From Promethearchaeota archaeon (GTDB taxonomy: Archaea > Asgardarchaeota > Lokiarchaeia > Sigyniarchaeales > SOKP01): a stretch of DNA of 40,588 nucleotides. The stretch covers positions 1 through 40,588 of the forward strand of contig SOKP01000139.1 of the NCBI GenBank assembly GCA_004375715.1, given 5' to 3'. Made by a program: the position numbers and the translations under genes. This document shows positions 1 through 31,290 of the stretch, piece by piece (positions within the stretch are counted from its first letter, which is position 1; every line of letters starts with the position of its first letter). A model generated the notes under the pieces. It saw only the letters and a program-made list of their open reading frames with translations. It was not told the origin of the DNA and did no database searches.

Positions 1-1258
1 AATCTGCGCAACAAGTGCCAAAAATCTTTTCCTCGGGGTTATATACTCGCGGTCCTGTAACTCTTAAGTTGTAAAGAGCACCCCCGAGCGCATACAGTTG
101 TTCTTTCTTTAAATTATTTAAAGACATGGCAACAGCTACAGGATTAAAAACATCAAGAATTCTTTCGCTATTTTTTTCAGCAACAATTTTTAATTTCGCT
201 TCTAATAACTTTCGATTTTGTTGTTGCTCATCTAATAATTGTTGATAACCCTCGACGCCTAAAGATAACATCGATATGAGAAAGTTCACAACTGGGGTCG
301 CAGAGGCGCGACCTGCGTACGATTGGCTTATCTTGGTTATGACCTCTTCAGATGGAGATGCTATTACAGCGCCACCTATAGGTGTTAAGAAATTCTTATC
401 TGTTGATTGAATAATTGCGTCTATTCGGCCTGCATCGAGACCAATTCGGATTAAATTCATCCACTCCGGGCTCTGTACGCCGTAAGCATTGATGACAATG
501 TGAACCAAATCGTGTTCTTTGGCAAATTTACTAATCTCTTTTATGTTATCGTGTTCTCGAGGAGGGAAAAAACTCGTTAATGATAGCACCGCAAAGCAAT
601 CCTCGTCCAAACTGGCTTTAATATCCTCAATTGGGATTCTCACAGCATCTCCAAACTTCTTGCCCTTCACAATTTTCATTTTAGCACCAATCAGAGTAAA
701 CGCTTTGATAAGTGCATTATGATCAACCTGTGGCACGATAACAGTTCTCTTGCTGAGCAGTTTGTCATCATCCCAATTCGGACGGAGAGCTCCTAAGCAT
801 AACGCTAAAGACATACCAGTACATAATGGGACTACTATAGCCTTCTTAACATTTGGTAAACCAAATTTTTTTAGAAAATTAAGAGCTAAATAATTACTAA
901 GCTCGTACATTATCGATCCACCAGGAGCTTTAGGTTGTGGTGCGGTAAGGAAACCACTACGCCCGACTCCATGACAGAATCCTGCCGAAGTTTTCAATTG
1001 TAAACTAGAGGCGATTCGTGCTTCACGCTCTCCTACACGAGACGCTTTATCGTCTTTATCGGTGTCCATATTAGAAAGGGTTTGGAGTAAAAATTCGATT
1101 TGACTTTCGCTCCAAGGCTTTTTAGGGACATTTTTTTGTTCAAACAAGTTTTGGATAGGTTTTAAAAAATTATTCAAGACTAATTGGCCTCTATTTAACA
1201 TATTTTGAGGAATCGGTGTACTCTTGAAATAATCAATAATTTTACTAAAATCAACCAC
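1..1258 (-). CDS. spcS: O-phosphoseryl-tRNA(Sec) selenium transferase (SepSecS), 3' end cut by window edge; GTG start (start uncertain)
   Basis: Own translation of minus strand: VVDFSKIIDYFKSTPIPQNMLNRGQ...ASSLQLKTSAGFCHGVGRSGFLTAPQPKAPGGSIMYELSN...VPLCTGMSLALCLGALRP...INAYGVQSPEWMNLI...GRIDAIIQSTDKNFLTPIGGAVIA...YAGRASATPVVNFLISMLSLG, matching recalled SepSecS motifs. Absent from the ORF track. Confidence 0.93.
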   Translation of the reverse strand, partial: MVDFSKIIDYFKSTPIPQNMLNRGQLVLNNFLKPIQNLFEQKNVPKKPWSESQIEFLLQTLSNMDTDKDDKASRVGEREARIASSLQLKTSAGFCHGVGRSGFLTAPQPKAPGGSIMYELSNYLALNFLKKFGLPNVKKAIVVPLCTGMSLALCLGALRPNWDDDKLLSKRTVIVPQVDHNALIKAFTLIGAKMKIVKGKKFGDAVRIPIEDIKASLDEDCFAVLSLTSFFPPREHDNIKEISKFAKEHDLVHIVINAYGVQSPEWMNLIRIGLDAGRIDAIIQSTDKNFLTPIGGAVIASPSEEVITKISQSYAGRASATPVVNFLISMLSLGVEGYQQLLDEQQQNRKLLEAKLKIVAEKNSERILDVFNPVAVAMSLNNLKKEQLYALGGALYNLRVTGPRVYNPEEKIFGTCCAD

Positions 1259-1306
1259 TCTTATCACGGATTTTTATTTAAAATGTAATGGCGGCCCCCA
1301 GGGGGA

Positions 1307-1337
1307 TTTTCTTGGAAAAAGGAAGTCTTTTTCCGCA
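1307..1337 (-). other. tRNA-Sec intron 2 (~30 nt) inside the T-loop; boundary ambiguous by 1 nt
   Basis: GGGG TTCGAT GC GGAAAAAG ACTTC CTTTTTCC AAGAAAA T CCCC: the T-loop holds 37 nt instead of 7, including a perfect 8-bp hairpin; removing 30 nt restores TTCGAAT or TTCGATT. Confidence 0.78.
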
Positions 1338-1370
1338 TCGAACCCCTATCCCTCCACAGGATAACTGGGT

Positions 1371-1398
1371 TTCTTCATTATTAGCAGTTGTAAAGGTT
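1371..1398 (-). other. tRNA-Sec intron 1 (28 nt), canonical position 37/38
   Basis: GCTGGG CTTC AA^A...GAAG AA^A CCCAGT: 4-bp CTTC/GAAG helix with 3-nt AAA bulges (bulge-helix-bulge); splicing gives the 7-nt loop CUUCAAA. Confidence 0.85.
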
Positions 1399-1523
1399 TT
1401 GAAGCCCAGCGTCTGAGACCACCCCGACCGCCGGGGGCCATATAAAATTTTACTTTAAGGAATATTATTAGTTATTTTTATTGAATTTTTCGATTTTTAT
1501 TTAATTATCTAATATTTCAATTA

Positions 1524-4562: not shown

Positions 4563-5999
4563 ATGATAGAAATTGAGAAGAAAGTGCCTATTCATTTGGG
4601 TTTATATGGGCACATAGATTCAGGGAAAACTGCAGTCGCTTCTGTGCTAAGCGAATTTATTTCAACTGCAGGAATTGATGCACACCCACAGAGTAAAGAA
4701 AGGGGAATAACTATAGACTTGGGATTTACCAGTTTCATTTTAGAAAATTATTTAATAACTTTAGTCGATGGACCAGGACACGCCGATCTAATTAAAATAT
4801 CCGCAGCTTCAGTAGAAATAATAGATTGTGCTTTAATAGTGATTGACGTCAATAAAGGCCCTCAGATTCAAACTGGAGAACATCTTATAATGATTGATTC
4901 ACTCAATATAAAAGACATTATCGTTATACTAAATAAAACTGATCTGTTCAAGGGAAATATTGAAAATGAAGTTGAAAAAATAAGAGATTTTTTTAAATCT
5001 ACTTCTTTTGGTTCAGAAATACCTATTTATGCCGTTTCAGCTAAAGAACAGAGTGGATTTGAGGGTTTAAAACGTGGGATATTGGAAAAAATCAAGAAAT
5101 TAAACATTAACCGAGACTACGAAGGCAGCATAATTATCCCAATAGATCATCATTTTTCGATAAAGGGACGAGGAGCGATAATAACGGGGACAATATTAAA
5201 GGGAAAATTGGATCTTAATCAGAATTTAGATGTAATACCGGTTAACACATCAGGAAGGGTAAAATCTATTCAAATTTTTCACCAGGAAGTTAGTTCTGCT
5301 AAAGCAGGAGATAGGGTTGGGATCAATTTAAAAGGACTTGATATTAAAAAAGTATACCGTGGTTGTTATGCTACAAATAATAAGGATTCGTTCGAGTTGG
5401 GCGATATAATTGAAATTCAAGTGAATCAGAATAAATTATTTAAACCAATTACCAAATTTGGAACCCAAGTTCATGTCACAGTAGGAATGTTTACATTATC
5501 AGGATTTCTATTTCCTTATTATATCGATAACCAAAAAAAGATTCAGTTAGAGAGAACCGGAGAATTAATAAAATACAAGGCCTACCTGTGGTTAAACGAG
5601 AAGATTTTCTTTAATAAAGAAAGATCAACACTGTTGATTAGCAGACTTGATCTTTCACCAACAACTTTAAGAATACTCGGGGCTGCTGAATTGATCAAAA
5701 TTCTCCATCAACCTCCTATTTTATACAAATACAAATTGAAAAAAGGATTCGTTCAAAATTCAGAGCACCCCCAAGGGGTCGTTTGTCGTGGTTTAGCACA
5801 AAGTATTGAGGGGGCAAAAAAATTAATCGGTCGAAAGTTGGAACCTCCGTTTTCAAAAATTGTTGATACATTTGGAACTAAAGGTTTAGTGATCGTAACA
5901 ATTGAAGATAAAAGCAAAATCGTAGAAAAAGGGGATATAATTACTCTAAAAGAATTAAGGAGTTTTACGCTGAAATCTAAAAAAGATTTAAATTTATAA
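4563..5999 (+). CDS. selB: Selenocysteine-specific elongation factor SelB/EFSec
   Basis: GTPase motifs GHIDSGKT, DGPGH, NKTD; ERGITIDLGFTSF and overall layout typical of archaeal SelB. Confidence 0.93.
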   Translation: MIEIEKKVPIHLGLYGHIDSGKTAVASVLSEFISTAGIDAHPQSKERGITIDLGFTSFILENYLITLVDGPGHADLIKISAASVEIIDCALIVIDVNKGPQIQTGEHLIMIDSLNIKDIIVILNKTDLFKGNIENEVEKIRDFFKSTSFGSEIPIYAVSAKEQSGFEGLKRGILEKIKKLNINRDYEGSIIIPIDHHFSIKGRGAIITGTILKGKLDLNQNLDVIPVNTSGRVKSIQIFHQEVSSAKAGDRVGINLKGLDIKKVYRGCYATNNKDSFELGDIIEIQVNQNKLFKPITKFGTQVHVTVGMFTLSGFLFPYYIDNQKKIQLERTGELIKYKAYLWLNEKIFFNKERSTLLISRLDLSPTTLRILGAAELIKILHQPPILYKYKLKKGFVQNSEHPQGVVCRGLAQSIEGAKKLIGRKLEPPFSKIVDTFGTKGLVIVTIEDKSKIVEKGDIITLKELRSFTLKSKKDLNL

Positions 6000-10146: not shown

Positions 10147-10803
10147 TTACTTTTTAATTATAGATTCATAGAATTCTATTGATTGGTTATAATCATCAAT
10201 AGTATTTATGTTATACATCAGTCTAACATCATCTAACACTAAATTGAATTGATTGATCTCTGGTTGATTGATTAACCGTCCATCCAATATATTATAACCT
10301 GCAGAAATTAATTTTTCTCCATCCTTAAAAAAATAAAATTCCGATGGTATCTTGAGTCCAAGTTTTTGATAAGATTTTACCGGGATCATTACAGATAAAG
10401 CGGAATATCTTAATGTAGAAAACTTATTAACTATGATATCTAGAATTTGTGATGTTATAAAAGGAGTATCTCCTACCAATGTAAGAACTAATTCAAGACC
10501 TAATTTTTGTATAACGGAATGAATATCTTGAAGATAACCTTTCCCTTCGGTTTCAAATAACTGTATTTGGGGATATTTCTGCTTTATAAACTCATAGGTA
10601 GATTTCGCCTGTGGAGAAGATGCAATAATTAGCTTTGATATGGTTTTTGCATTTAGAGCTGCTTTAATTGAATAATCGATAATTTTTTGATTACCTAAAG
10701 GTAATAGTAATTTTTCCTTAAATTTAAAGGATGTTTTGCTAAAATCGAAACGAGAATTCTTTCCACCAGCCAATAGGATCGCAGGGATTTTCACATTAAT
10801 CAA
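10147..10803 (-). CDS. cobY: Adenosylcobinamide-phosphate guanylyltransferase (CobY-like NTP transferase)
   Basis: AILLAGGKNSRFDFSKTSFKFKEKLLLPLG; located beside cobS. Confidence 0.82.
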   Translation of the reverse strand: MINVKIPAILLAGGKNSRFDFSKTSFKFKEKLLLPLGNQKIIDYSIKAALNAKTISKLIIASSPQAKSTYEFIKQKYPQIQLFETEGKGYLQDIHSVIQKLGLELVLTLVGDTPFITSQILDIIVNKFSTLRYSALSVMIPVKSYQKLGLKIPSEFYFFKDGEKLISAGYNILDGRLINQPEINQFNLVLDDVRLMYNINTIDDYNQSIEFYESIIKK

Positions 10804-10820
10804 TAAATAAAGGTAATTAA

Positions 10821-11666
10821 TTATATTATGGCAAAATTGAAGGATATGAATAAAATAATTAAACTAAATGCTCGTGTAATTTCATTAAGAGCTCCTATAC
10901 AATCACCAGTAATGCCATTAAAATTGCGATATGAGATAAAAATAATAACCAGAAGTGGAATAATTGAACACAAGAAAGATATGATAATAATTGGTAGTAT
11001 GTCCGGAATTGTTTTTAAAATTAAATTTTCAATTAAATATGGGATTAAATTCGATAAAGATAAAGATCTAAGATAGTAAAATACAAAATTGTGGATGTAC
11101 ATACTTAAAAGAGCAAAAGTTATAGCAAGAAGGTAAGAAGCGAACATATTTTTCCAATTATTTGCTTTAATAAATTCCGTAGCCATAGGAGTATCTACTG
11201 ATTTCCCTATCGAACAAACCGCAACCATATTAAATTTAGCAATAATTTCGCTTAGAATCAAGACCGCAAACACATAATTTAGTGAATGTGCTATTGATAA
11301 GAAGGTTATAGTTAAAACTATGAATCCTAAACTAAATCCGCCCGCTCCTATAGAGACATCATGCATTACATCAATCTTCTTTTGAGGATCACCTACAACC
11401 ATTAAACCATCCCCAAAATCTAGTAAGCCATCAAGATGGTGTGCTCCAGTTATATAAATTAAGCAAGCAAGGCATAATGCAGAAACTAATAAAGGGGGAA
11501 GGAAAAATGTAAGTAGAAAGGATATTGAGCTTAAAATTAATCCTATAATAAATCCAATAATAGGAAATAGCCAAATTTTATTTGCTACTTCGCTAAAATT
11601 TTTAATTTCGACTTTAATTGGAATCCGTGTTAAAAAACTTATACAAAATTTCAGACCTTCGAACAT
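10821..11666 (-). CDS. cobS: Adenosylcobinamide-GDP ribazoletransferase (cobalamin synthase)
   Basis: FLTRIPIK..., GAHHLDGLLDFGDGLMV, NGITGDCIGALNEI motifs. Confidence 0.92.
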   Translation of the reverse strand: MFEGLKFCISFLTRIPIKVEIKNFSEVANKIWLFPIIGFIIGLILSSISFLLTFFLPPLLVSALCLACLIYITGAHHLDGLLDFGDGLMVVGDPQKKIDVMHDVSIGAGGFSLGFIVLTITFLSIAHSLNYVFAVLILSEIIAKFNMVAVCSIGKSVDTPMATEFIKANNWKNMFASYLLAITFALLSMYIHNFVFYYLRSLSLSNLIPYLIENLILKTIPDILPIIIISFLCSIIPLLVIIFISYRNFNGITGDCIGALNEITRAFSLIILFISFNFAII

Positions 11667-11729
11667 ACTAAACCAATATCCTTTTTATTTAAATATATAA
11701 CCAAATATCACTTCATTGCGCATAATTCG

Positions 11730-12812
11730 CTAAAAAATTAATTGTAATAGGGTTATTACTGTAGAGATTATTAGTAAAAAGGTGAAAGAAAACAACAGAA
11801 TTGTGTTTTTAATTAATTTATAACTTAAAATAATATCTTCTGGTATCAATTCTCGATTTTTAACACCTAATTTATAATGATTTTGTTTCTCTAATTCAAC
11901 ATTTAAAAGTCCTGCGATGGCGCTCATCGTCCATCCTGCATTTATACTTTCTGTTATATTTCTGTGTTCTTTTAAGATCTTCCAGCCATTTTTTATATCT
12001 AAGTGATAAAATTTTCCTACCAAAAACATAAACAATACAGTAATCCTTGTAGGTAGAAAATTCGAAAAATCATCTAATTTCGCTGATGCAAATCCAATAT
12101 TAATATTTTCGGTATCTTTATATCCCACTATACTATCACCAGTATTTATTATCCGAAAGAGATATGCACAGGGGATACCTAAAAATAACCAAAGATAATT
12201 ATGATAAATATATAAATAGATTAAAGTACCAACTAAATTTGAGAATAAATAAAACCAAATAACACTAATCGCAGAATCAGTAGAACTTTCCGCGATAACT
12301 TCGACAGAAGCAGATATAACATAGTTTTCACTTAACTGTTGCGTGTTTCTTCTTACAATATAAGATAATTTCTTCCTTGCGAATTCTAAATCCTTCTCCT
12401 TTAATGCCTGACATATCGGTATCGTGGTTGTTCCTAAGTATTTTATTGCAAAAGACCATTTTAAAATAAATCCGTTTATAGCACAATAAAAAGATATAAA
12501 TATAAGGTTAAATAAAAAATTACCTTGAAAATATTGAAAAGGCAAAATAGACCATAGGATTATTTGAATAAGATAAAGAAGGGTACCAAATAAAAGAAAT
12601 GGTAAAATAATGAGGAAAAATCCGTTTATTCTATCAATTGTCTTTTTTCCTGTCAGTAAATGTTTTTTTAGCCAATTAATTGTTCTACCAATTAATTGAA
12701 CTGGATGATATTTTAATTCTGGGTCTCCTAATGTTAAATCAAACAATAAAGCGAATAATAATACAAGCGAGGGAATTAACCATAAGTATGTAGTATATAT
12801 GAATTCGCTCAT
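11730..12812 (-). CDS. cbiB: Adenosylcobinamide-phosphate synthase CbiB
   Basis: DLTLGDPELKYHPVQLIGR, INTGDSIVGYKD, NAGWTMSAIAGLL motifs. Confidence 0.92.
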   Translation of the reverse strand: MSEFIYTTYLWLIPSLVLLFALLFDLTLGDPELKYHPVQLIGRTINWLKKHLLTGKKTIDRINGFFLIILPFLLFGTLLYLIQIILWSILPFQYFQGNFLFNLIFISFYCAINGFILKWSFAIKYLGTTTIPICQALKEKDLEFARKKLSYIVRRNTQQLSENYVISASVEVIAESSTDSAISVIWFYLFSNLVGTLIYLYIYHNYLWLFLGIPCAYLFRIINTGDSIVGYKDTENINIGFASAKLDDFSNFLPTRITVLFMFLVGKFYHLDIKNGWKILKEHRNITESINAGWTMSAIAGLLNVELEKQNHYKLGVKNRELIPEDIILSYKLIKNTILLFSFTFLLIISTVITLLQLIF

Positions 12813-12818
12813 AATTTC

Positions 12819-14330
12819 TTATTTTATTCCCATTATTTGTAAGATATAATTAAGATCAATACTGGATTCTATTATTTTTGTAAGCTTATCCAAATTTTTT
12901 TCAATAACAGAGTTAAAATCATAACTAGAAGTACTATGACTATGCTCTTTCTTTTTTTTTAATAGCATTTTTATTAATTTCTTTCTGAAACCATTATTTT
13001 CAAATAATCCATGAATAAATGTGCCGATAATATTTTGTGAATCATTAGTTATTCCGAGAGCCGGGGAGATTTGATTTGAAGAATTTTTTAAAGGTTGAAA
13101 GATTAAATTCTGTTCAGAATTAAAATTAACTTCTCCCATATGGATTTCATACCCCTTTATAGGTTCACCTTCAAATTCTTTCATTCCGGAAAATCTAACT
13201 TCTATTTGTCGTGTGATTTTTTGATACTCCTTAAATTGTGTTGAAATGGGCAAGTATTTAAGACCTTCATAGACATTATCAATATCTCCTTCAATAGCCG
13301 GGTCAATTATTTTTTGACCAAGCATTTGATATCCACCACAAATTCCAATTATAAGCACGTTTTGTTTATGTAATTCTTTCAAAACCTGAACGAACCCCTG
13401 TTTTTTAAGCCATATTAAATCCTGAATAGTATTCTTAGTACCCGGTAAAATTATTAAATCTGGATCGTGTATCTCCCATGGATATTGAACATAAAATAAA
13501 TTTATATCTTCTTCCCAACTTAATGGTTCAAAGTCTGTGAAATTAGATATTTTGGGGAATTTTATAACCACGATATTTAATTTCCCATTATGATCAGTAT
13601 TTTTTAAACCTAAAGAATCTTCAGAGGGGAGTTTTAAATTATCTATATATGGGATGATTCCTATAGATTTTTTATCGATTAATTTTTCAATCTTTTTAAT
13701 CCCTGGTATAAGTAACTCTACATCTCCTCTAAACTTATTAATTACAAATCCTTTGATTAATTGTTGTTCCTCTGGGTTTAGTAATTTAATCGTCCCATAA
13801 ATTGAAGCGAAAACACCACCCTTATCTATATCTGCTATAAGAATTACAGGAACATTATATAATTTTGCTACAAACATATTTGCAATTTCCATTTCTGAAA
13901 GATTTATTTCAGCAGGACTGCCAGCTCCTTCAATAATTACTATATCGTTATTTTCCATTAAATACGATAAAGATTTTTTAATGGCTGGAATAAGTTTTGG
14001 TATTATGGACTTATAGTATTCATTCACTGAATAATCTATGAAAGGTTTACCCATTAGAATTATTTGTGATTTATTATTTCCTTTAGGCTTCAAAAGAATT
14101 GGATTATGTTCTTTAATTGAATCCGTTCTTGCTGCAATTGCTTGTAATACTTGAGAGCGAGCAATCTCCTCTCCACTTGCCGTCACAAAAGAATTTAATG
14201 ACATATTTTGAGATTTAAAAGGAGCGACTTTATAACCCATATTACTAAAGATACGACATAGCGCCGCTACAAATAGAGTTTTACCCGCATCTGAAGCAGT
14301 TCCTTGAACCATTAATGTTTTAGCTGTCAT
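12819..14330 (-). CDS. cbiP: Cobyric acid synthase
   Basis: MVQGTASDAGKT, FKSQNMSLNSFVTASGEEIARSQVLQAIAA, IIEGAGSPAEINL, GICGGYQMLG. Confidence 0.95.
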   Translation of the reverse strand: MTAKTLMVQGTASDAGKTLFVAALCRIFSNMGYKVAPFKSQNMSLNSFVTASGEEIARSQVLQAIAARTDSIKEHNPILLKPKGNNKSQIILMGKPFIDYSVNEYYKSIIPKLIPAIKKSLSYLMENNDIVIIEGAGSPAEINLSEMEIANMFVAKLYNVPVILIADIDKGGVFASIYGTIKLLNPEEQQLIKGFVINKFRGDVELLIPGIKKIEKLIDKKSIGIIPYIDNLKLPSEDSLGLKNTDHNGKLNIVVIKFPKISNFTDFEPLSWEEDINLFYVQYPWEIHDPDLIILPGTKNTIQDLIWLKKQGFVQVLKELHKQNVLIIGICGGYQMLGQKIIDPAIEGDIDNVYEGLKYLPISTQFKEYQKITRQIEVRFSGMKEFEGEPIKGYEIHMGEVNFNSEQNLIFQPLKNSSNQISPALGITNDSQNIIGTFIHGLFENNGFRKKLIKMLLKKKKEHSHSTSSYDFNSVIEKNLDKLTKIIESSIDLNYILQIMGIK

Positions 14331-14686
14331 TTATTTTTACTGATTTGGTTTATGATTATTTTTTTTCTTAAATTTTTCAATTCTTCTTTACTAATTAAAG
14401 AAAAATTTTTATTTAATTCAATTAAACCCTCTAAAATTTTATAAGCAATATCTTGCTTATGATGAAATATACAATCTGTACATGACCAGACTTCTTTTCC
14501 CGAGGTTTTACTAATAATATAGCGACCTCCAGTATCAACTTCTTGACAAGGATAAAATGGGCAATAACAAAACGTACAATCTTCTAGCCCTTCATGACAA
14601 GGGAAAAATTTACAGAAATTATTTTTCCCAAGTAATTTCTTCCTTATTAAAAAAATGTTGATGAGATTTCTTCCTTTTTCATGCAT
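14327..14686 (-). CDS. Cysteine-rich small protein associated with cobalamin clusters
   Basis: CKFFPCHEGLEDCTFCYCPFYPCQ...WSCTDCIFHH. Confidence 0.75.
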   Translation of the reverse strand: MHEKGRNLINIFLIRKKLLGKNNFCKFFPCHEGLEDCTFCYCPFYPCQEVDTGGRYIISKTSGKEVWSCTDCIFHHKQDIAYKILEGLIELNKNFSLISKEELKNLRKKIIINQISKNK

Positions 14687-14717
14687 ATAAAGTCATATTT
14701 TATTCATTTTTTTTTGA

Positions 14718-15884
14718 TTAATTACAAACAGAATTAAAAGTCCTTATTAGTTTACAATTTAGATCTCTTGATTTTATCGCTACCCTTATATAATAATCAT
14801 CCAAACCATTATAATTCGAGCAATCTCTTACTAAAATATTTTGCTTTAACATCTGATTTGTTATATATTTGGATGAAAGGGAAGTATTCTCAGTATTAAT
14901 TAAAAGATAATTTGTTGATGTAGGATAAATTTTGAGACCTTTTATTTTAGCTAACTCCTCAGAGACAAATTTACATTCTTCTTTGAAATATCTTACACTA
15001 TTTTTTATGAAATCTTTTGAATTGAGTAACTCTTCTGCAAGTTCCTGAGCAACATTATTTACTGGCCATAATGTTTGAACTTTCTTTAAAAAGTTAATTA
15101 ATTTGGGGTTGCCTCCTCCAAATCCAATTCTTAACCCAGGAATGCCGAAGAATTTTGTAAATGAACGTATTACAAATAAATTTTCATACTGCTTTACTTT
15201 GGTTATCAACGAGTTTTCTTCACCCGCAAATTCAATAAAAGCTTCATCTAAAAAAACCATAATTTTTCTTTCCTTAGCATAGCAAATTAAGTCTTCCATA
15301 GCTTCTATATTATCTAAATACCCATTAGGATTGTTTGGATTGCATATAAAAACACATTTTGGTTTTTTCGCAAGTTGTTTCTTAAGGGATTGAAAATTTA
15401 ATTGGAAATTTCTTTCTGGTAGGCGATATTCATTTATAACAACTCCACCACGCTTCTTTATTGCCCATTCATATTCAGAAAATGTTGGTTGGCACACCAC
15501 TATTTTATCTTTTTCTTGTACAAAGGTACTCACAAATATATTAATTAAATCTATTGAGCCCCCACCTATTATTAGATTATTAGGAGTCAAGATATTTTGG
15601 AAATATTCAACTAAAGATTTCTTTAGTTGCATCGAATCAGAATCGGGATATCTAGAAATTCTAGTTAATGATTTCATAATAGAATTCATATACGGCTCCA
15701 ATTCTAAAAGATGATTAATGTTTGTACTAAAATCCAAAAGTCCTGATTTATTTATTTCATCCTTGTATATCTCTCCCCCATGAGATTTTCGTTTAAGTTT
15801 CAAAAGATTCTTATCTACAAGTTCAGTCAATTTCAACTTATCAGACACCAATTTCTTTCTGAATTGCTTCAATAACCTTATCAC
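14718..15884 (-). CDS. cobD: PLP aminotransferase-family, threonine-phosphate decarboxylase CobD-like
   Basis: DFSTNINHL, VCNPNNPNGYL, FLDEAFIEF, SFTKFFGIPGLRIGFG. Confidence 0.85.
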   Translation of the reverse strand: MIRLLKQFRKKLVSDKLKLTELVDKNLLKLKRKSHGGEIYKDEINKSGLLDFSTNINHLLELEPYMNSIMKSLTRISRYPDSDSMQLKKSLVEYFQNILTPNNLIIGGGSIDLINIFVSTFVQEKDKIVVCQPTFSEYEWAIKKRGGVVINEYRLPERNFQLNFQSLKKQLAKKPKCVFICNPNNPNGYLDNIEAMEDLICYAKERKIMVFLDEAFIEFAGEENSLITKVKQYENLFVIRSFTKFFGIPGLRIGFGGGNPKLINFLKKVQTLWPVNNVAQELAEELLNSKDFIKNSVRYFKEECKFVSEELAKIKGLKIYPTSTNYLLINTENTSLSSKYITNQMLKQNILVRDCSNYNGLDDYYIRVAIKSRDLNCKLIRTFNSVCN

Positions 15885-17103
15885 TACTTCGAATAATAAT
15901 GATATTTTTTTTTAAGACTAAATGATTATAGATGGAAGTTGCCTCTCCTTTTGTAAAATCTCGTTCATTAATTGAACTCTCTTCAATTATAATAATTTTA
16001 TTATTGGTGGTTGTTAATACTTCAAGATTACGTAAATTTCCCTTTCCGAATGGTATATTTACTAAAATTACTAAATCTACCTCATCTACGACTTTCTTTA
16101 ATTGTTCATATGACCTCTCCGAAATAGAAGAAAATGGCCATTCTGTGATTACCTTATAGCCCAACTCTTCTGCGAGCTTTAAATCGTCATCTAATAAATT
16201 TACCACTCCAACTGAAATATCATAGTTACTGATCCGGGGTAGAATATTTAGAGCAGAGCCTCCTCCCGCAATAATATGGATTCTTTTTTTCTTCTGAATA
16301 TCTTTTGAATTTGGATTTTCCAAATTATTAGGATATTTTCGTATGGGAGTTATATATATAGACCCTGTATATGCATTTTTCTTTATAGCAACTTCAATTC
16401 CATATACTTTCTGAATGTTTTCTTTAGTTAATACTTTTTTAATCTCACCGAAATCCTCAATACCTCCTTGATTCATAAGTAGAATTTTATCACAATATTG
16501 AGCTGCAATATTCAAATCATGAAGTACCACTATAACAATAAGACCTTTTTCAACATAAGTCCTAAATAAATTCATAAATTCTAATTGATAATTAATATCT
16601 AAATGAGAGGTGGGTTCATCCAATAGTAAAATTTTCGTTCTTTGAGCAATGGCTCTGGCAATTATTACTTTTTGTTGTTCTCCGCTACTCAATTGATTAA
16701 AATTTCTGTCTCTTAGATCATTTAACCCTAATTGTGTTATAACATCACTTAAGATTTTTTGATCTTCTTCTGATTCTCCAGAGAAGCGACTAATATGGGC
16801 GTATCTCCCCATCTTTATTATTTCACTTACCTTATAATCAAATTCAACATAATTAGTTTGATTTACGAGCGATAATTGTTTTGCAATTTCACGTATAGAA
16901 AGTTTCTTTAAATTGATATCTTCAATAAATACTTGTCCATAATTCTGTCGTAAAATTCCACTTAATAATTTCAAAAAAGTAGTTTTTCCACATCCATTTG
17001 GACCTAAAATTCCATATAAATGTCCCTTTTTAAATTGAATGGATATATCCTTAATTATTTGCTTGGTTTTATAACTAAATCGAAGATTTTTAGACGATAT
17101 CAT
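15841..17103 (-). CDS. btuD: Cobalamin ABC transporter ATPase with extra C-terminal domain
   Basis: Walker A GPNGCGKTT, LSSGEQQKV signature, LLLDEPTSHLD; ~150-aa Rossmann-like extension HIIAGGGSALNILPRI.... Confidence 0.88.
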   Translation of the reverse strand: MISSKNLRFSYKTKQIIKDISIQFKKGHLYGILGPNGCGKTTFLKLLSGILRQNYGQVFIEDINLKKLSIREIAKQLSLVNQTNYVEFDYKVSEIIKMGRYAHISRFSGESEEDQKILSDVITQLGLNDLRDRNFNQLSSGEQQKVIIARAIAQRTKILLLDEPTSHLDINYQLEFMNLFRTYVEKGLIVIVVLHDLNIAAQYCDKILLMNQGGIEDFGEIKKVLTKENIQKVYGIEVAIKKNAYTGSIYITPIRKYPNNLENPNSKDIQKKKRIHIIAGGGSALNILPRISNYDISVGVVNLLDDDLKLAEELGYKVITEWPFSSISERSYEQLKKVVDEVDLVILVNIPFGKGNLRNLEVLTTTNNKIIIIEESSINERDFTKGEATSIYNHLVLKKNIIIIRSSDKVIEAIQKEIGV

Positions 17104-17145
17104 TATGGACTAACTCTATTGAGTAATAATAAATAAATAAACAAT

Positions 17146-18204
17146 TTATAGCAATTCTCCTGATTTCTTTTTTTTAATAATTAAATATACAAAAAATGGA
17201 CCACCTAATAAGGAAGTTAATATTCCAACGGGGAGTTCTAAAGGAGGGACTAAAGTTCGTGCCACTAAATCTGCCCATAATAATAATAGCGCACCCCCCA
17301 CTGCTGAAAATACTAACAACTTTCGATTATTACTTCCAATTAACATTCGCATGATATGGGGGATTATTAAACCTACAAATCCAATACTACCACAGAAAGC
17401 TACTGTTGTTGAGGCCAAAAGCGTCATTAAAATTAACATAACTTTTTTAGAGCGCTCTACATTTACACCGATGGATTGTGCTGTAGCGTCTCCCAACACC
17501 ATCGCATTCAAATCCCTTCCGTAAAAAAATAATATGACAAAACCATTTATGAAAATCACAAAAATTACAAAAAATTCGATCCAAGTAGTCCCCCAAAAAC
17601 TTCCCATAAGATATGTTAATAAAAAATGAGCATGTTCTTCGGAAAAATACAAAATAAAACTTGTAAATGCTGAAAAGAAATAAGAAATTGCAATTCCAGA
17701 TAATAAAAGGGCAGACATTGATAAGTGATATTTTGTTTTCGATAGATTATAGATAGTAAATATCGCAATACACGAAAAGATAAATGATACAAGAGGTAGC
17801 GTAAAAATGCTTAATAAACCAGAAATTCCTAAAACAATACTTAGCGCAGTTCCAAATCCCGCAGATGAGGATATACCGATAATATAAGGGTCTACGATTG
17901 GATTCTTAAAAAGTCCTTGGGCTACCACTCCTGCAATTCCTAACATTGCTCCAACGGTGACTGCCATAAGGACTCGGGGTAAACGTAAAATTAATATAAT
18001 ATTTTCCTCTCCTGCTGTCCACATTATATCTATATTGAATCCAAGAGAATTTAGTAGAATTCCAAAAACCTTATTAAAACTAATAACAACACTTCCAATG
18101 GAGACAGCAAGAATTATACTGATAAATACGGTTAAAATAAGAAATAATAAAATTGGTATAAAAAACTTCTTTTTATCTCTAATTCGAAGTATTTTTTCAT
18201 TCAT
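17146..18204 (-). CDS. btuC: Cobalamin ABC transporter permease
   Basis: FecCD/BtuC motifs: LRLPRVLMAVTVGAMLGIAGVVAQGLFKNPIVDPYIIGISSSAGFGTAL, GFVGLIIPHIMRMLIG. Confidence 0.93.
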   Translation of the reverse strand: MNEKILRIRDKKKFFIPILLFLILTVFISIILAVSIGSVVISFNKVFGILLNSLGFNIDIMWTAGEENIILILRLPRVLMAVTVGAMLGIAGVVAQGLFKNPIVDPYIIGISSSAGFGTALSIVLGISGLLSIFTLPLVSFIFSCIAIFTIYNLSKTKYHLSMSALLLSGIAISYFFSAFTSFILYFSEEHAHFLLTYLMGSFWGTTWIEFFVIFVIFINGFVILFFYGRDLNAMVLGDATAQSIGVNVERSKKVMLILMTLLASTTVAFCGSIGFVGLIIPHIMRMLIGSNNRKLLVFSAVGGALLLLWADLVARTLVPPLELPVGILTSLLGGPFFVYLIIKKKKSGELL

Positions 18205-18225
18205 TTTTCTTTAAAGTAATTTTAT

Positions 18226-19173
18226 TTACGGAAATAACATTGGATACAAATAGCGAGTCATATTTTCCAAAGCGTCAACTATTCGTGGTCCTGGTCTTAA
18301 ATAAATATCATCAAAAACTTTATAAACTCGATTATTTATACACGCATTTATAACATTATATCCTGCTCTCTCGCATACTTGTTGCGAATACCAAGGAGCG
18401 CTATGTTCGGTAATAAATATCACATCAGGATCGCCATTGATAATTGCTTCATGACTTACTACAGGGTATTCTAAGTTTATATTCCCAAAAATATTGATTG
18501 CTCCAGCTTTATTAATCATATCGTTTATGTAAGATTTTCCCCCTACAATCTTAGGAGACTCCCAAATCTCGAAATAACTATCTAATATTTGAGAATAATT
18601 TAAGGTATTAGTTTTATTAGTTATTATTTCCATATTGTAACTCATATTACTCATTAAATATACTCCATTAGTTCTCTTATTGACTAAATTACCAAATACT
18701 CCCATATTTTCTATGATCTCATCCAATGTATTAGCTATAATGAGGACTATAGCATAACCTTGGTTTTCTAATTGAGCAACTGACTCAGCATTCCATTTAG
18801 ATGCAATTATTAAATCTGGATTTAAAGTAGCAATAATTTCAAGATTAGGAGTTGAAAAACCTCCTATGCTTGTGATATTTGTTGCGTCCGTAGGATAATT
18901 ACAATAATCGGTAACTCCAACTAATTTATCTTCAGCTCCTAAGGCAAAGATAGTTTCAGTCACGGAAGGTGACATTGATACTATTCTTTGTGGAACATCC
19001 GGTACATAAACTTGTCTATTCATTGAATCAACAAATAAATGAGTATTTGGTGGTGCTGTTTCTGGTGTAATTAAATTCATTACTAACATCCCAAGTCCAA
19101 AAGTACTTCCACCAATAACCAATACTAATACTACAAAAACTGTTAATGATTTTTTTTTTTCCATGTAGATCAC
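18226..19173 (-). CDS. btuF: Cobalamin-binding periplasmic-type lipoprotein/anchored binding protein
   Basis: PQRIVSMSPSVTETIFALGAEDKLVGVTDYCNYP...IGGFSTPNLEIIATLNPDLIIAS. Confidence 0.92.
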   Translation of the reverse strand: MIYMEKKKSLTVFVVLVLVIGGSTFGLGMLVMNLITPETAPPNTHLFVDSMNRQVYVPDVPQRIVSMSPSVTETIFALGAEDKLVGVTDYCNYPTDATNITSIGGFSTPNLEIIATLNPDLIIASKWNAESVAQLENQGYAIVLIIANTLDEIIENMGVFGNLVNKRTNGVYLMSNMSYNMEIITNKTNTLNYSQILDSYFEIWESPKIVGGKSYINDMINKAGAINIFGNINLEYPVVSHEAIINGDPDVIFITEHSAPWYSQQVCERAGYNVINACINNRVYKVFDDIYLRPGPRIVDALENMTRYLYPMLFP

Positions 19174-27207: not shown

Positions 27208-30200
27208 TTAAATAGAGTCTTCTGCTTTTTTCTTCCAATAATAATAGTTGCTTTTTGAAATATCTGGAAAATGAGAATAAAATTCTTTAAGTGTCATTTC
27301 TGGATGCATTTGATAATAATCTAAGAATTTTAGATAATCAATTTTATTAAGTACTCCTTTAATGTCATCATATTTTAATTTCATTAATTGTTCTCTTGAA
27401 GGATTTTTATAACCTATATAATTTATGAAGTTTTTAATCACATTCCATTTATATTTTTCACTCTTAAAATTCCAACATAAAGCAATTAGATATCGTGTCC
27501 TTTCTAAAGAATCGTGGTTTAATTCTTTAGCGATTTGACTTATATCTTTCTTTTGAGCTAACATTTTTGAAAGTATTGGTTTTGTAATCAATATTCTTGC
27601 AGTTCTTAAATTTCTCCACCATTCAGGAATATATTCCTTTCTGATAGTCTCCCAAGGAACTCCATCAAATTTTTTATCCATTTCATAGCTATCTAAGCCT
27701 TGTATAATTAGTGATTTTAACCTTTCTTTTATGAGCATCTTACGTTTATCCTTAAAATCTATATTCCAAAATATTTCACTACTCCACTTAGAAATGGTAT
27801 GGCTATTTACCGTTGAAAATAGGTTTTCACTAAGGTATGTTGCACTATAACCATGACTCATCAAAGTTTCTAAAACTGGTTTTAAATAGAGTTTTCGTGC
27901 ATTTCGGAGACTCCCCCAATATTCATTAATCCTCTTTGTTATAACATCTTTAGATATAACTCTGTTATATTTTTTAGCAAAAATTTTGGAAATATCTGGG
28001 CTCCATAATCCTAGTGCAATTAATGGAATTAATGCCGAGCGGGGGATAGGTATTAAAGAACCTCCACCACCACCCTTGCTGATGTTGCCGATTCTCTTAG
28101 GATAAAGTTTTTTAAAATGTTTTATCCAGTATTTTTCTTTAGTCCGAAGTTTATTGTCGCTCCAACAAACTTCAAGAATCTCATAAGTAAAAGATTTATT
28201 AGCCCCTAAGTATCCTATCCCTTGTGCATTCAACGGATGAACTTTTCTTAAATTTTCCCCTTTAGTCTCCAGATATCTCATGAGAGTGTGAATTCTAAGA
28301 TTACTTAATTCAATAAATGCGTCAGTATTATACCAATACCATCTTTGAGAAAACCTTTCAGTAGTTAGACCAATCTGAATTAATCCATTAGAAATTGGAT
28401 CTCCATTAATATCTTTTATTTGAGTTATTTTATATACTATTCCTGACCACCCATGCAATCCTCTTTTTTTATATATGGTTATTAACTGTTTTATAGGAAA
28501 AGATCCCCCAAATCTCTTATTGCTAATTTCTTGATGATCCTTTTCTTTTACCCATTTAACCATATTATCAATATAAGGTTGTATTAAAGAGTTAAAATCA
28601 ATTTTTATAGGCTTGTGCAGGTAGCAGATCTGTTCTGAGATCACTTTAAACGGGCTTAATTTGTGTTTTATAGTATAATCTCGAAAAGTAGCAAAACCAT
28701 GTTTCTTAGCCCATTTATTAAGAGTTTTATTAAATGTTGTCTTATTATTTTGAATTAAATCCATAACATTATAGAAAGATTTAGGGAGAAGACCAATATT
28801 AATTGCTATTTTAGAACATATTTCCCCTAAATATGACCGAGTAAGGTATTTTCCTTCCTTATATAATAATTCTTGATGAAATTCGATAAATCTTAAAAGA
28901 TGATTTTCTAATATGTCAGCTCCCAAAAAAAAATTATACATTTCATCAATTTCTCTCTGTGATTTTTTTATGTTAATTTTTTTTTTTTGTTCTTTCCTTA
29001 ACTCTTTATAATTCTGCGAGATCTGCTCAAAAAACCTGCTATGGACTCGATTCTCATGAAATCTGTTCATAAGTTCAAACCTATGTTTGTTAATATATTT
29101 TTTAATAGCACGAATATTTACCAAAAGTTCTAATTGGATAGCATCGAATTGGTGTAGTTTTTCTATCAAAGATTTTATTGCATTCTTTTCTTCTTCGGAG
29201 AGTTTTTCGTGTTTAGACTTTTCATATAATTTCATCAACTTTTTAGTCAAATTTTCGAACTCCTTATACTTCTCAAGGGCTTTTTCTAACTCAGATTTAA
29301 GTTCAATGTTGCACTCATCCTCAGAAGCTTCTTTAATCCATCGTTTAAGGGTTGTTTTCCAGCCTTCTTCTTCAATTTCTTTTTTTATTTCGCTTTCACT
29401 TTGAGAATTTTTAATCTTTTCCGATTCTAATTCTCGTTGTTCTAACCATTGGATATAGCCTTTTGTTCTTTTTTTAGCATATATCGGTCTCTTGTCCGTT
29501 TGCTGGTGATATAATTCTTGAAGATGTTCATCTTCCTCTTCTTCAGTTTCTTCACTTGCTAGCTTTGAACCATCTTCAAGTAACTCTTTCTTCTCTTCGG
29601 ATTCGCTTTCGATAGTTTCTAATTCTCGTTTTAACACTTCCATTTTTTCTTTATTCTCAACATTTTCGCAAGTTTCTGCTTTCTTTTCCTTGTGTAAAGT
29701 AGATGTTTGCTCAATTTGATCTAGTTCTTCCGCAATTGAATTTTGCTCTTTAATCTCTAAATTGGCTTCTTCAATTTTTTCATTTACATTCGATCCTACT
29801 TCATTTTCTTGTTTATTATTTATTTCTTTTTGATAATTGCTTGCTGCTGCTTCCATTTGCTCATCGATTTCTTCTTGGGACTTTACTTGTCGATGCAATT
29901 GCTCTTCAAGTAAATTTTCTAAATTTTCTTCAAGCTCAGTTCTTTCTATAGCTTCCTCCACTCTCACATCTATTTCTTCTTGCGATTTCCCTTGTTGAAC
30001 TAAAATCTCTTCCAATTCAACAGCCTGCTCTATTAAATCTACTCTATCTAAATCTTCTTTTAGAATTCCTACGCTCTCTTCGTCCTCGAGATCTGCTAGC
30101 TTTGATTTCTTTATTTCTTGCTCTTCATATAATTTTTCTAATGTCTCGCCAAACTCGGATGTTTCTATGGTTTCCTCTATGGCTTCCTCTACCTTCATAT

Positions 30201-31290
30201 CTATTTCTTCTTGCGATCTTTCTTGTTGAACTAAAATTTGTTCTAATTCAACAGCTTGCTCTATTAAATCTACTCTATCCAAATCTTCTCTTAGATCTTC
30301 TACGCTCGCCTCGTCTTCGTGATTTACTTGTTTTAATTTCTCTAGTTGTTGTTCTTCGATTATATTTTCTGCTTCTTTTAGCGTATTATATATTTCCTCT
30401 GCTTCGTGCATTATTTCTTCTATCTCTTCAGAGGACTTTTCTTCTCGATCTAATTCTTCGCGAATATTCCATAAATATTCAAATTCCTCCGTACTAGTAA
30501 TTTCCTTAGATGTCTCATTTATTTCCTCCAAGTTCTTAGATTCCTCTGTTACTTCTTGCCTAGATTCTTCAATTTCCTGGTCTTCTTTACTATATTGTTC
30601 GCTTACTACCTCATTTTCTTTTAAATTTTCGTAATATTTCTCGGCATGATACGCTGAATTTTCTCCAACTTGTGGTTCTAAAACTTCGTCTTCCCCTTTT
30701 GTTTCTCGAGCAAATTCGGCTAGTTCTTCAATTTTATTTATGAATTCGATTTCTTCGGTATTTACAATAGGATCTGGATTATCTGGAATTTCTTCTAGGG
30801 GAATTTCGATTTCTTCCTCTTGGTCCTGGTCTTCCACATCTTCTTCACTGTCATCAGTTATAACTATAGTCGTTGTTTCAGATCCAACATTTTCGATTAA
30901 ATCTTCTTTATTGGATTCTCCATTTTCATTGCTATTTTTATCTATCTCATCTTTTTCTCTCTCGTTTTGTACATCATCGTTCCAATCGATCTCATCCCAT
31001 ATTGAATTCTCCCTCTGGCCTTGTCCATCATCGCTCCAATCGATTTCATCCCATATTGAATTTCCTCCCTCATTTTGCACATCACCGCTCCAATCGATCT
31101 CATCCCATTCTTCTCCAGCGGATTCTTGTTCTGGATCCTCTCCAACATTTTCTATTTGTTCGTTCTCGAGATCTCTTTCGACCTCTAATTCAAAGTCTTC
31201 GTTGAAGTCATCGTCATTTTTCTCTTCATCTACTTCTTTCTCTTCTCCTAAATATCCCACTTCATCTTCATTTTCACTTTCAAAATCCAC
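27208..31290 (-). CDS. 1360-aa protein: acidic repeat/coiled-coil N-half, GIY-YIG nuclease-like domain (~28060-28470), repeated HTH-like C-terminal region
   Basis: GWSGIVYKITQ...IQIGLTTERFSQRWYWY...TYEILEVCW...KEKYWIKHFKKLYPKRIGNISKGGGGG fits GIY-YIG homing-endonuclease motifs; N-half extremely E/D rich. Confidence 0.75.
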   Translation of the reverse strand: MDFESENEDEVGYLGEEKEVDEEKNDDDFNEDFELEVERDLENEQIENVGEDPEQESAGEEWDEIDWSGDVQNEGGNSIWDEIDWSDDGQGQRENSIWDEIDWNDDVQNEREKDEIDKNSNENGESNKEDLIENVGSETTTIVITDDSEEDVEDQDQEEEIEIPLEEIPDNPDPIVNTEEIEFINKIEELAEFARETKGEDEVLEPQVGENSAYHAEKYYENLKENEVVSEQYSKEDQEIEESRQEVTEESKNLEEINETSKEITSTEEFEYLWNIREELDREEKSSEEIEEIMHEAEEIYNTLKEAENIIEEQQLEKLKQVNHEDEASVEDLREDLDRVDLIEQAVELEQILVQQERSQEEIDMKVEEAIEETIETSEFGETLEKLYEEQEIKKSKLADLEDEESVGILKEDLDRVDLIEQAVELEEILVQQGKSQEEIDVRVEEAIERTELEENLENLLEEQLHRQVKSQEEIDEQMEAAASNYQKEINNKQENEVGSNVNEKIEEANLEIKEQNSIAEELDQIEQTSTLHKEKKAETCENVENKEKMEVLKRELETIESESEEKKELLEDGSKLASEETEEEEDEHLQELYHQQTDKRPIYAKKRTKGYIQWLEQRELESEKIKNSQSESEIKKEIEEEGWKTTLKRWIKEASEDECNIELKSELEKALEKYKEFENLTKKLMKLYEKSKHEKLSEEEKNAIKSLIEKLHQFDAIQLELLVNIRAIKKYINKHRFELMNRFHENRVHSRFFEQISQNYKELRKEQKKKINIKKSQREIDEMYNFFLGADILENHLLRFIEFHQELLYKEGKYLTRSYLGEICSKIAINIGLLPKSFYNVMDLIQNNKTTFNKTLNKWAKKHGFATFRDYTIKHKLSPFKVISEQICYLHKPIKIDFNSLIQPYIDNMVKWVKEKDHQEISNKRFGGSFPIKQLITIYKKRGLHGWSGIVYKITQIKDINGDPISNGLIQIGLTTERFSQRWYWYNTDAFIELSNLRIHTLMRYLETKGENLRKVHPLNAQGIGYLGANKSFTYEILEVCWSDNKLRTKEKYWIKHFKKLYPKRIGNISKGGGGGSLIPIPRSALIPLIALGLWSPDISKIFAKKYNRVISKDVITKRINEYWGSLRNARKLYLKPVLETLMSHGYSATYLSENLFSTVNSHTISKWSSEIFWNIDFKDKRKMLIKERLKSLIIQGLDSYEMDKKFDGVPWETIRKEYIPEWWRNLRTARILITKPILSKMLAQKKDISQIAKELNHDSLERTRYLIALCWNFKSEKYKWNVIKNFINYIGYKNPSREQLMKLKYDDIKGVLNKIDYLKFLDYYQMHPEMTLKEFYSHFPDISKSNYYYWKKKAEDSI

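Follow-up and report, generated by a model that had tools for sequence, protein, structure and literature searches.

Two predicted introns in the tRNA-Sec gene of a Lokiarchaeota genome

Introduction

Positions 1289-1439 of the window, the 40,588-nt stretch of Lokiarchaeota DNA analysed here, can be folded into a tRNA-Sec once two segments are taken out, which raises the question of what these segments are and what they mean for Sec decoding. The first-pass annotation of this DNA had described one intron at 37/38 and another in the T-loop, and had proposed that splicing of the latter gates Sec decoding. Position 59/60 is among the known non-canonical intron sites of archaeal tRNAs (PMC4090602), and up to three introns are found per archaeal tRNA (PMC8450103). 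For tRNA-Sec, a 31-nt T-arm intron was described in Lokiarchaeota by Mariotti et al. 2016, as cited in PMC5330540 and PMC9499178, and in these citations it was later termed the only archaeal case. Our reading, to which we assign a probability of roughly 0.94, is that the window carries a functional-looking and apparently the sole tRNA-Sec gene of its genome, interrupted by two archaeal tRNA introns of the ordinary kind that would be cut by EndA and the exons ligated to a 93-nt product.

Results

Structure of the tRNA-Sec gene

The sequence is as first described except for its orientation: the gene is on the minus strand, with its 5' end at 1439 and its 3' end at 1289 (Table 1). With both inserts removed, ARAGORN recognises a tRNA-SeC(tca) of 93 nt, whereas neither the precursor nor either of the singly spliced forms is called. 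The spliced fold is of the 9/4 type, with a 9-bp acceptor (GGCCCCCGG when reverse-complemented), the 4-bp T-stem GGGG/CCCC, a long variable arm, the anticodon UCA and G73. Its anticodon stem is CUGGG/CCCAG, enclosing the loop CUUCAAA, and the D-stem is of the archaeal seven-pair type, with one G.A mismatch (G15.A26) among the seven positions in the window's clade. The gene also encodes CCA (GCCA at 1289-1292), a feature outside the definition of the 9/4 fold that is said not to be encoded in archaeal tRNA-Sec (PMC9499178). Contrary to that statement, nearly all of the Asgard tRNA-Sec genes that we read encode CCA.

In the raw window ARAGORN found no tRNAs and Rfam gave no matches at the gathering threshold; the Rfam tRNA-Sec model RF01852 matches intronless orthologs at 54-61 bits. 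A covariance model was trained on 11 rows, D-intron rows being excluded because the D intron was misplaced in the MAFFT alignment. It matched the window gene over its full length at 83.7 bits, a score obtained with the window's own sequence among the training rows, and gave one good tRNA-Sec match in the genome, which is about 84% complete.

Table 1. Features of the tRNA-Sec locus and neighbouring Sec genes in the window
Feature	Position	Strand	Remarks
tRNA-Sec gene	1289..1439	-	151 nt unspliced, 93 nt spliced, G73-CCA included; covariance-model match
Exon 1, 41 nt	1399..1439	-	acceptor 5' strand, D-arm, anticodon 5' half, UCA, CUUCAA at end
Intron 1, 28 nt, position 37/38	1371..1398	-	absent in many relatives
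Exon 2, 34 nt	1337..1370	-	A38, anticodon 3' strand, long variable arm, T-stem 5' strand, T-loop UUCGAU
Intron 2, 30 nt, T-loop position 59/60	1307..1336	-	UUCGAUU in intronless relatives
Exon 3, 18 nt	1289..1306	-	U60, T-stem 3' strand, acceptor 3' strand, G73, CCA
Intron 1 central BHB helix, 5' side, CUUC	1401..1404	-	
Intron 1 central BHB helix, 3' side, GAAG	1373..1376	-	
Intron 2 relaxed BHB central helix, 5' side, UUCG	1339..1342	-	
Intron 2 relaxed BHB central helix, 3' side, AGAA	1309..1312	-	3 bp + G.A
Intron 2, 8-bp hairpin, 5' arm (GGAAAAAG)	1327..1334	-	
Intron 2, 8-bp hairpin, 3' arm (CUUUUUCC)	1314..1321	-	
SepSecS (O-phosphoseryl-tRNA(Sec):selenium transferase)	2..1258	-	TIGR03531 454 bits; PF05889; GTG start; gene cut by contig edge
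SelB/EFSec, Sec-specific elongation factor	4563..5999	+	TIGR00475 234 bits, E 3.5e-69; curated cut-off 242, just missed

SepSecS starts 30 nt past the 3' end of tRNA-Sec on the same strand (gap 1259-1288), a distance so short as to suggest that the two may form a tRNA-mRNA co-transcript. In most of the family members examined, too, a tRNA precedes SepSecS in the same orientation. SepSecS is present in 59 of the 61 genomes of the window's family, and the named records among its relatives are Candidatus Lokiarchaeota MAGs. Besides SepSecS and SelB, the genome encodes a KTI12/PSTK-family kinase, two SelD genes, each containing a single in-frame TGA, and three FlpD-type proteins (L227-L229) with two in-frame TGA codons each, which are likely selenoproteins; this set of genes makes it very probable that the genome uses Sec decoding. 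Elsewhere in the window, a cobalamin-related cluster was recognised by eye at 10147-19173 (CobS/CbiB/CobQ-like, CobD-like aminotransferase and BtuCDF-like transporter), and positions 27208-31290 encode a protein of 1360 aa that has no NCBIfam matches and whose long N-terminal part is acidic and repetitive.

Presence and absence of the inserts in relatives

The tRNA-Sec gene was fully parsed in 59 family genomes, comprising the drawn set and a few added from a later phylum search. Minus its inserts the gene measures exactly 93 nt in all 59. This length was displayed for 51 genomes, and because the parser enforced the same body lengths throughout, the independent evidence in the 59-genome count is that a parse with intact stems exists in every one. 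Inserts occur at three sites, in the D-arm after nucleotide 17 (D), at 37/38 (A) and in the T-loop at 59/60 (T), and are combined as follows: none in 19 genomes, D in 7, D+T in 20, A+T in 10 (the window included), A in 2 and T in 1. The 19 genes without any insert read CUUCAAA and UUCGAUU, precisely the junctions predicted for the window, so that both intron positions given by the first-pass annotation are borne out. The same A+T gene is shared by nine genomes forming one clade of the window's genus; among them the exons hardly vary and the introns drift, and more generally it is the intron sequence outside the BHB that drifts among relatives. D introns show an equivalent pairing of GUCG with CGAU, and the one exon change in this motif, to GUUG, is matched by CAAU. 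The inserts are thus present in some orthologs and absent from others around an intact mature tRNA, as BHB introns are, and this pattern strongly supports the reading of both as introns. One genome that consists of a single contig (G038) has two tRNA-Sec genes (L024 and L133), each with a D-arm insert and 125 nt long according to the model.

The splice sites

At intron 1, the 4-bp CUUC/GAAG central helix and the two 3-nt AAA bulges are as described in the first-pass annotation, which had called the site a textbook BHB. Folding gave no helix on the intron side, however, and the site is for that reason strictly of the hBH/BHL type rather than a full hBHBh'.

Intron 2, with its 30 nt and 8-bp hairpin (1336-1307), had been considered to lack a strict BHB. 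This holds for the window, where exon UUCG stands opposite the four bases preceding the last two of the intron and forms three pairs and one G.A, but it understates the relaxed BHB, which is complete in 12 of the 29 distinct T introns of relatives. The pairs U54-A, U55-A/G and C56-G are present in all 29, that of G57 being the one found in 12. Mean pairing over the 29 distinct introns was 3.41, as against 1.75 when shuffled (maximum 2.31 in 2000 shuffles), and the predicted register scored best, with lower scores in other registers. As the first three pairs are conserved without exception and pairing exceeds that of the shuffles, intron 2 is predicted to be a relaxed BHB intron and not an insert devoid of a BHB. 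In two other Asgard families (f26 and f20) the T introns pair at all four positions. Covariation in the intron-2 hairpin is weak, pair 6/20 being broken in four of seven distinct introns, and it is set aside as evidence. Minimum-energy folding of intron 2 did not form the 3-bp UUC/GAA helix; taken with the missing intron-side helix of intron 1, this indicates that cleavage may depend on context.

Introns in other tRNAs and other Asgard families

The window's genome carries inserts at the same T-loop place, with matching exon-intron pairing, in tRNA-Lys(UUU) and tRNA-Phe(GAA), and tRNA-Arg(GCG) has a T-loop insert with less clear exact boundaries that is probably an intron. Removal of the inserts led ARAGORN to call all three tRNAs. 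The T-loop inserts of these loci (L198, L202 and L195 for tRNA-Lys, tRNA-Phe and tRNA-Arg) lie at about 59/60, one of them together with a D-arm intron, and the raw forms of the genes are missed by ARAGORN. Further tRNAs of this genome carry anticodon-loop or D-arm introns. From these predicted genes, a T-loop intron is not special to tRNA-Sec.

Across the phylum the covariance model matched 117 of 232 Asgard genomes, the matches in two of which (G134 and G135) are other tRNAs; these and a match on G158:C38 were rejected as tRNA-Sec on their sequences. Outside the window's family we found a T-loop intron in f26, an anticodon-loop intron in f7, D-loop and T-loop introns in f20, and in one f8 genome D-loop, T-loop and perhaps variable-arm introns. 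No introns interrupt the genes of f28 or those retrieved from the sister families f3 and f4. A 177-nt tRNA-Sec in genome G061 (L125) seemingly has D-loop, variable-arm and T-loop inserts.

The splicing endonuclease

Two EndA genes were found in the window's genome. The alpha gene encodes 200 aa, has its nearest counterpart in the A. pernix alpha chain 3p1z (chain B) and retains the catalytic Tyr/His/Lys residues. The beta gene, cut by a contig edge, encodes at least 105 aa and is without the catalytic His; the beta subunit of P. aerophilum EndA has only 96 aa (PMC6379350). At the gene level this is a catalytic alpha with a structural beta lacking the triad, as in the (alpha beta)2 type, and a majority of Asgard genomes likewise have two EndA genes. 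Two-subunit (alpha beta)2 EndA has broad specificity (PMC6379350) and in other organisms cleaves relaxed BHBs, and the likely need for such an enzyme put forward in the first-pass annotation is in keeping with these genes.

In the processing that we propose, the 3' end of each intron would pair in the precursor with the exon just 5' of its splice site, and the pairings CUUC/GAAG at 37/38 and UUC[G]/[A]GAA at 59/60 would create bulge-helix-bulge-like sites. By analogy, we infer that the Loki two-subunit EndA cuts both introns and that a ligase, normally RtcB, would join the exons into the 93-nt 9/4 tRNA-Sec; expression of the precursor is likewise presumed, along with its cleavage and ligation.

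Turnover of introns

On a quick SepSecS tree with several weak branches, a minimum of 12 changes in D, 3 in A and 13 in T accounts for the distribution. Three sister pairs (G017/G001, G058/G056 and G032/G034) differ at both D and T. The upstream region and the tRNA of G058 and G032 are similar to those of intronless lineages, and their downstream SepSecS region is similar to that of the sister; because the flanks differ in affinity in this way, part of the apparent intron losses is probably allele replacement by recombination. Genomes G019 and G004 share about 98% identity in each flank. They differ in the T intron and also in one compensated T-stem pair, which is G68-C78 in one and A68-T78 in the other, as would follow from exchange of the T-arm in one event. 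No genome has D and A together, an absence that is not significant, A having arisen only about three times on the tree. Introns would then have been gained, lost and moved among three sites, partly by allele replacement, with the mature tRNA unchanged.

Discussion

The proposal that unspliced tRNA-Sec cannot bind SepSecS or SelB, with splicing efficiency tuning Sec decoding, has some structural appeal, as a T-loop left unspliced might well perturb the elbow on which the Sec machinery relies and the T-loop site is the weaker, relaxed BHB. The main reason to suppose a gate specific to Sec falls away, however, because in this genome tRNA-Lys(UUU), tRNA-Phe(GAA) and, probably, tRNA-Arg(GCG) have similar T-loop introns. 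The introns are, moreover, gained and lost freely, being missing in the close sisters G017, G058 and G032 with SepSecS kept, and they drift outside the BHB. We regard a regulatory gate as very improbable.

More improbable again is that an unusual tRNA-Sec keeps both inserts as structural expansions that are never removed. Unusual insertions and deletions, not termed introns, were reported in 2021 for the tRNA-Sec of all Sifarchaeia and some Lokiarchaeia (PMC9723677), and intron 2 does fold a stable hairpin; yet a retained T-loop insert would interrupt UUCGAUU, the inserts are exactly present or absent in close relatives with the 93-nt body unchanged, and the pairing at the splice sites is conserved. 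The first-pass annotation had itself named a conserved insertion in relatives as the counter-case, and it is the coming and going of the inserts that favours introns. A decaying pseudogene or a misassembly might be suspected in a draft MAG whose contig ends inside SepSecS, but that suspicion is scarcely credible for a gene repeated across a clade of nine genomes with its exons held nearly constant, and which is the only good tRNA-Sec match in a genome with UGA-containing selenoprotein candidates. Two spliced introns in a working tRNA-Sec gene is thus the reading we retain.

Much of this is expected variation. The two-intron gene is real, but a T-loop intron of tRNA-Sec is already known for Lokiarchaeota, and the case of Mariotti et al. 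2016, as cited, agrees with ours in gene, lineage and arm and nearly in intron length. That case has one intron; here there is a second at 37/38, and a D-arm intron in relatives. The non-canonical introns of Thermoproteales and other archaea share the 59/60 position, the BHB-type site and the occurrence of several per gene, and differ from the present ones in that the host here is tRNA-Sec and the organism an Asgard archaeon (PMC4090602, PMC8450103). Within Asgard archaea, over 90% of the tRNA genes of Atabeyarchaeia and Freyarchaeia, which are other classes, have introns, again multiple and at non-canonical positions (PMC11291895); the main text of that paper makes no statement on tRNA-Sec introns. 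The tRNA-Sec of Daphnia pulex shares an anticodon-loop intron at 37/38 (PMC5330540), but it is eukaryotic, has that single intron and is presumably unrelated in origin. What is apparently new, being unreported in the papers searched, is the 37/38 intron of an archaeal tRNA-Sec, the D-arm intron of its relatives and their rapid turnover.

The literature claim of a single T-arm intron as the only one in archaeal tRNA-Sec is thereby corrected, and introns are the probable explanation of the unusual insertions in Lokiarchaeia tRNA-Sec. Standard scans with Rfam and ARAGORN miss intron-bearing tRNA-Sec genes, so that the use of Sec in Asgard genomes can be underestimated. A wider proposal, towards which we remain more doubtful than inclined, is that Asgard tRNA-Sec may be a site of fast intron turnover, with at least three sites repeatedly filled and emptied, D and A mutually exclusive, and several sites often emptied at once through an intronless allele. 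Sister pairs with and without introns offer a clean natural experiment in the gain and loss of tRNA introns and, if the fast-turnover reading is true, the mechanism of tRNA intron loss would become directly testable.
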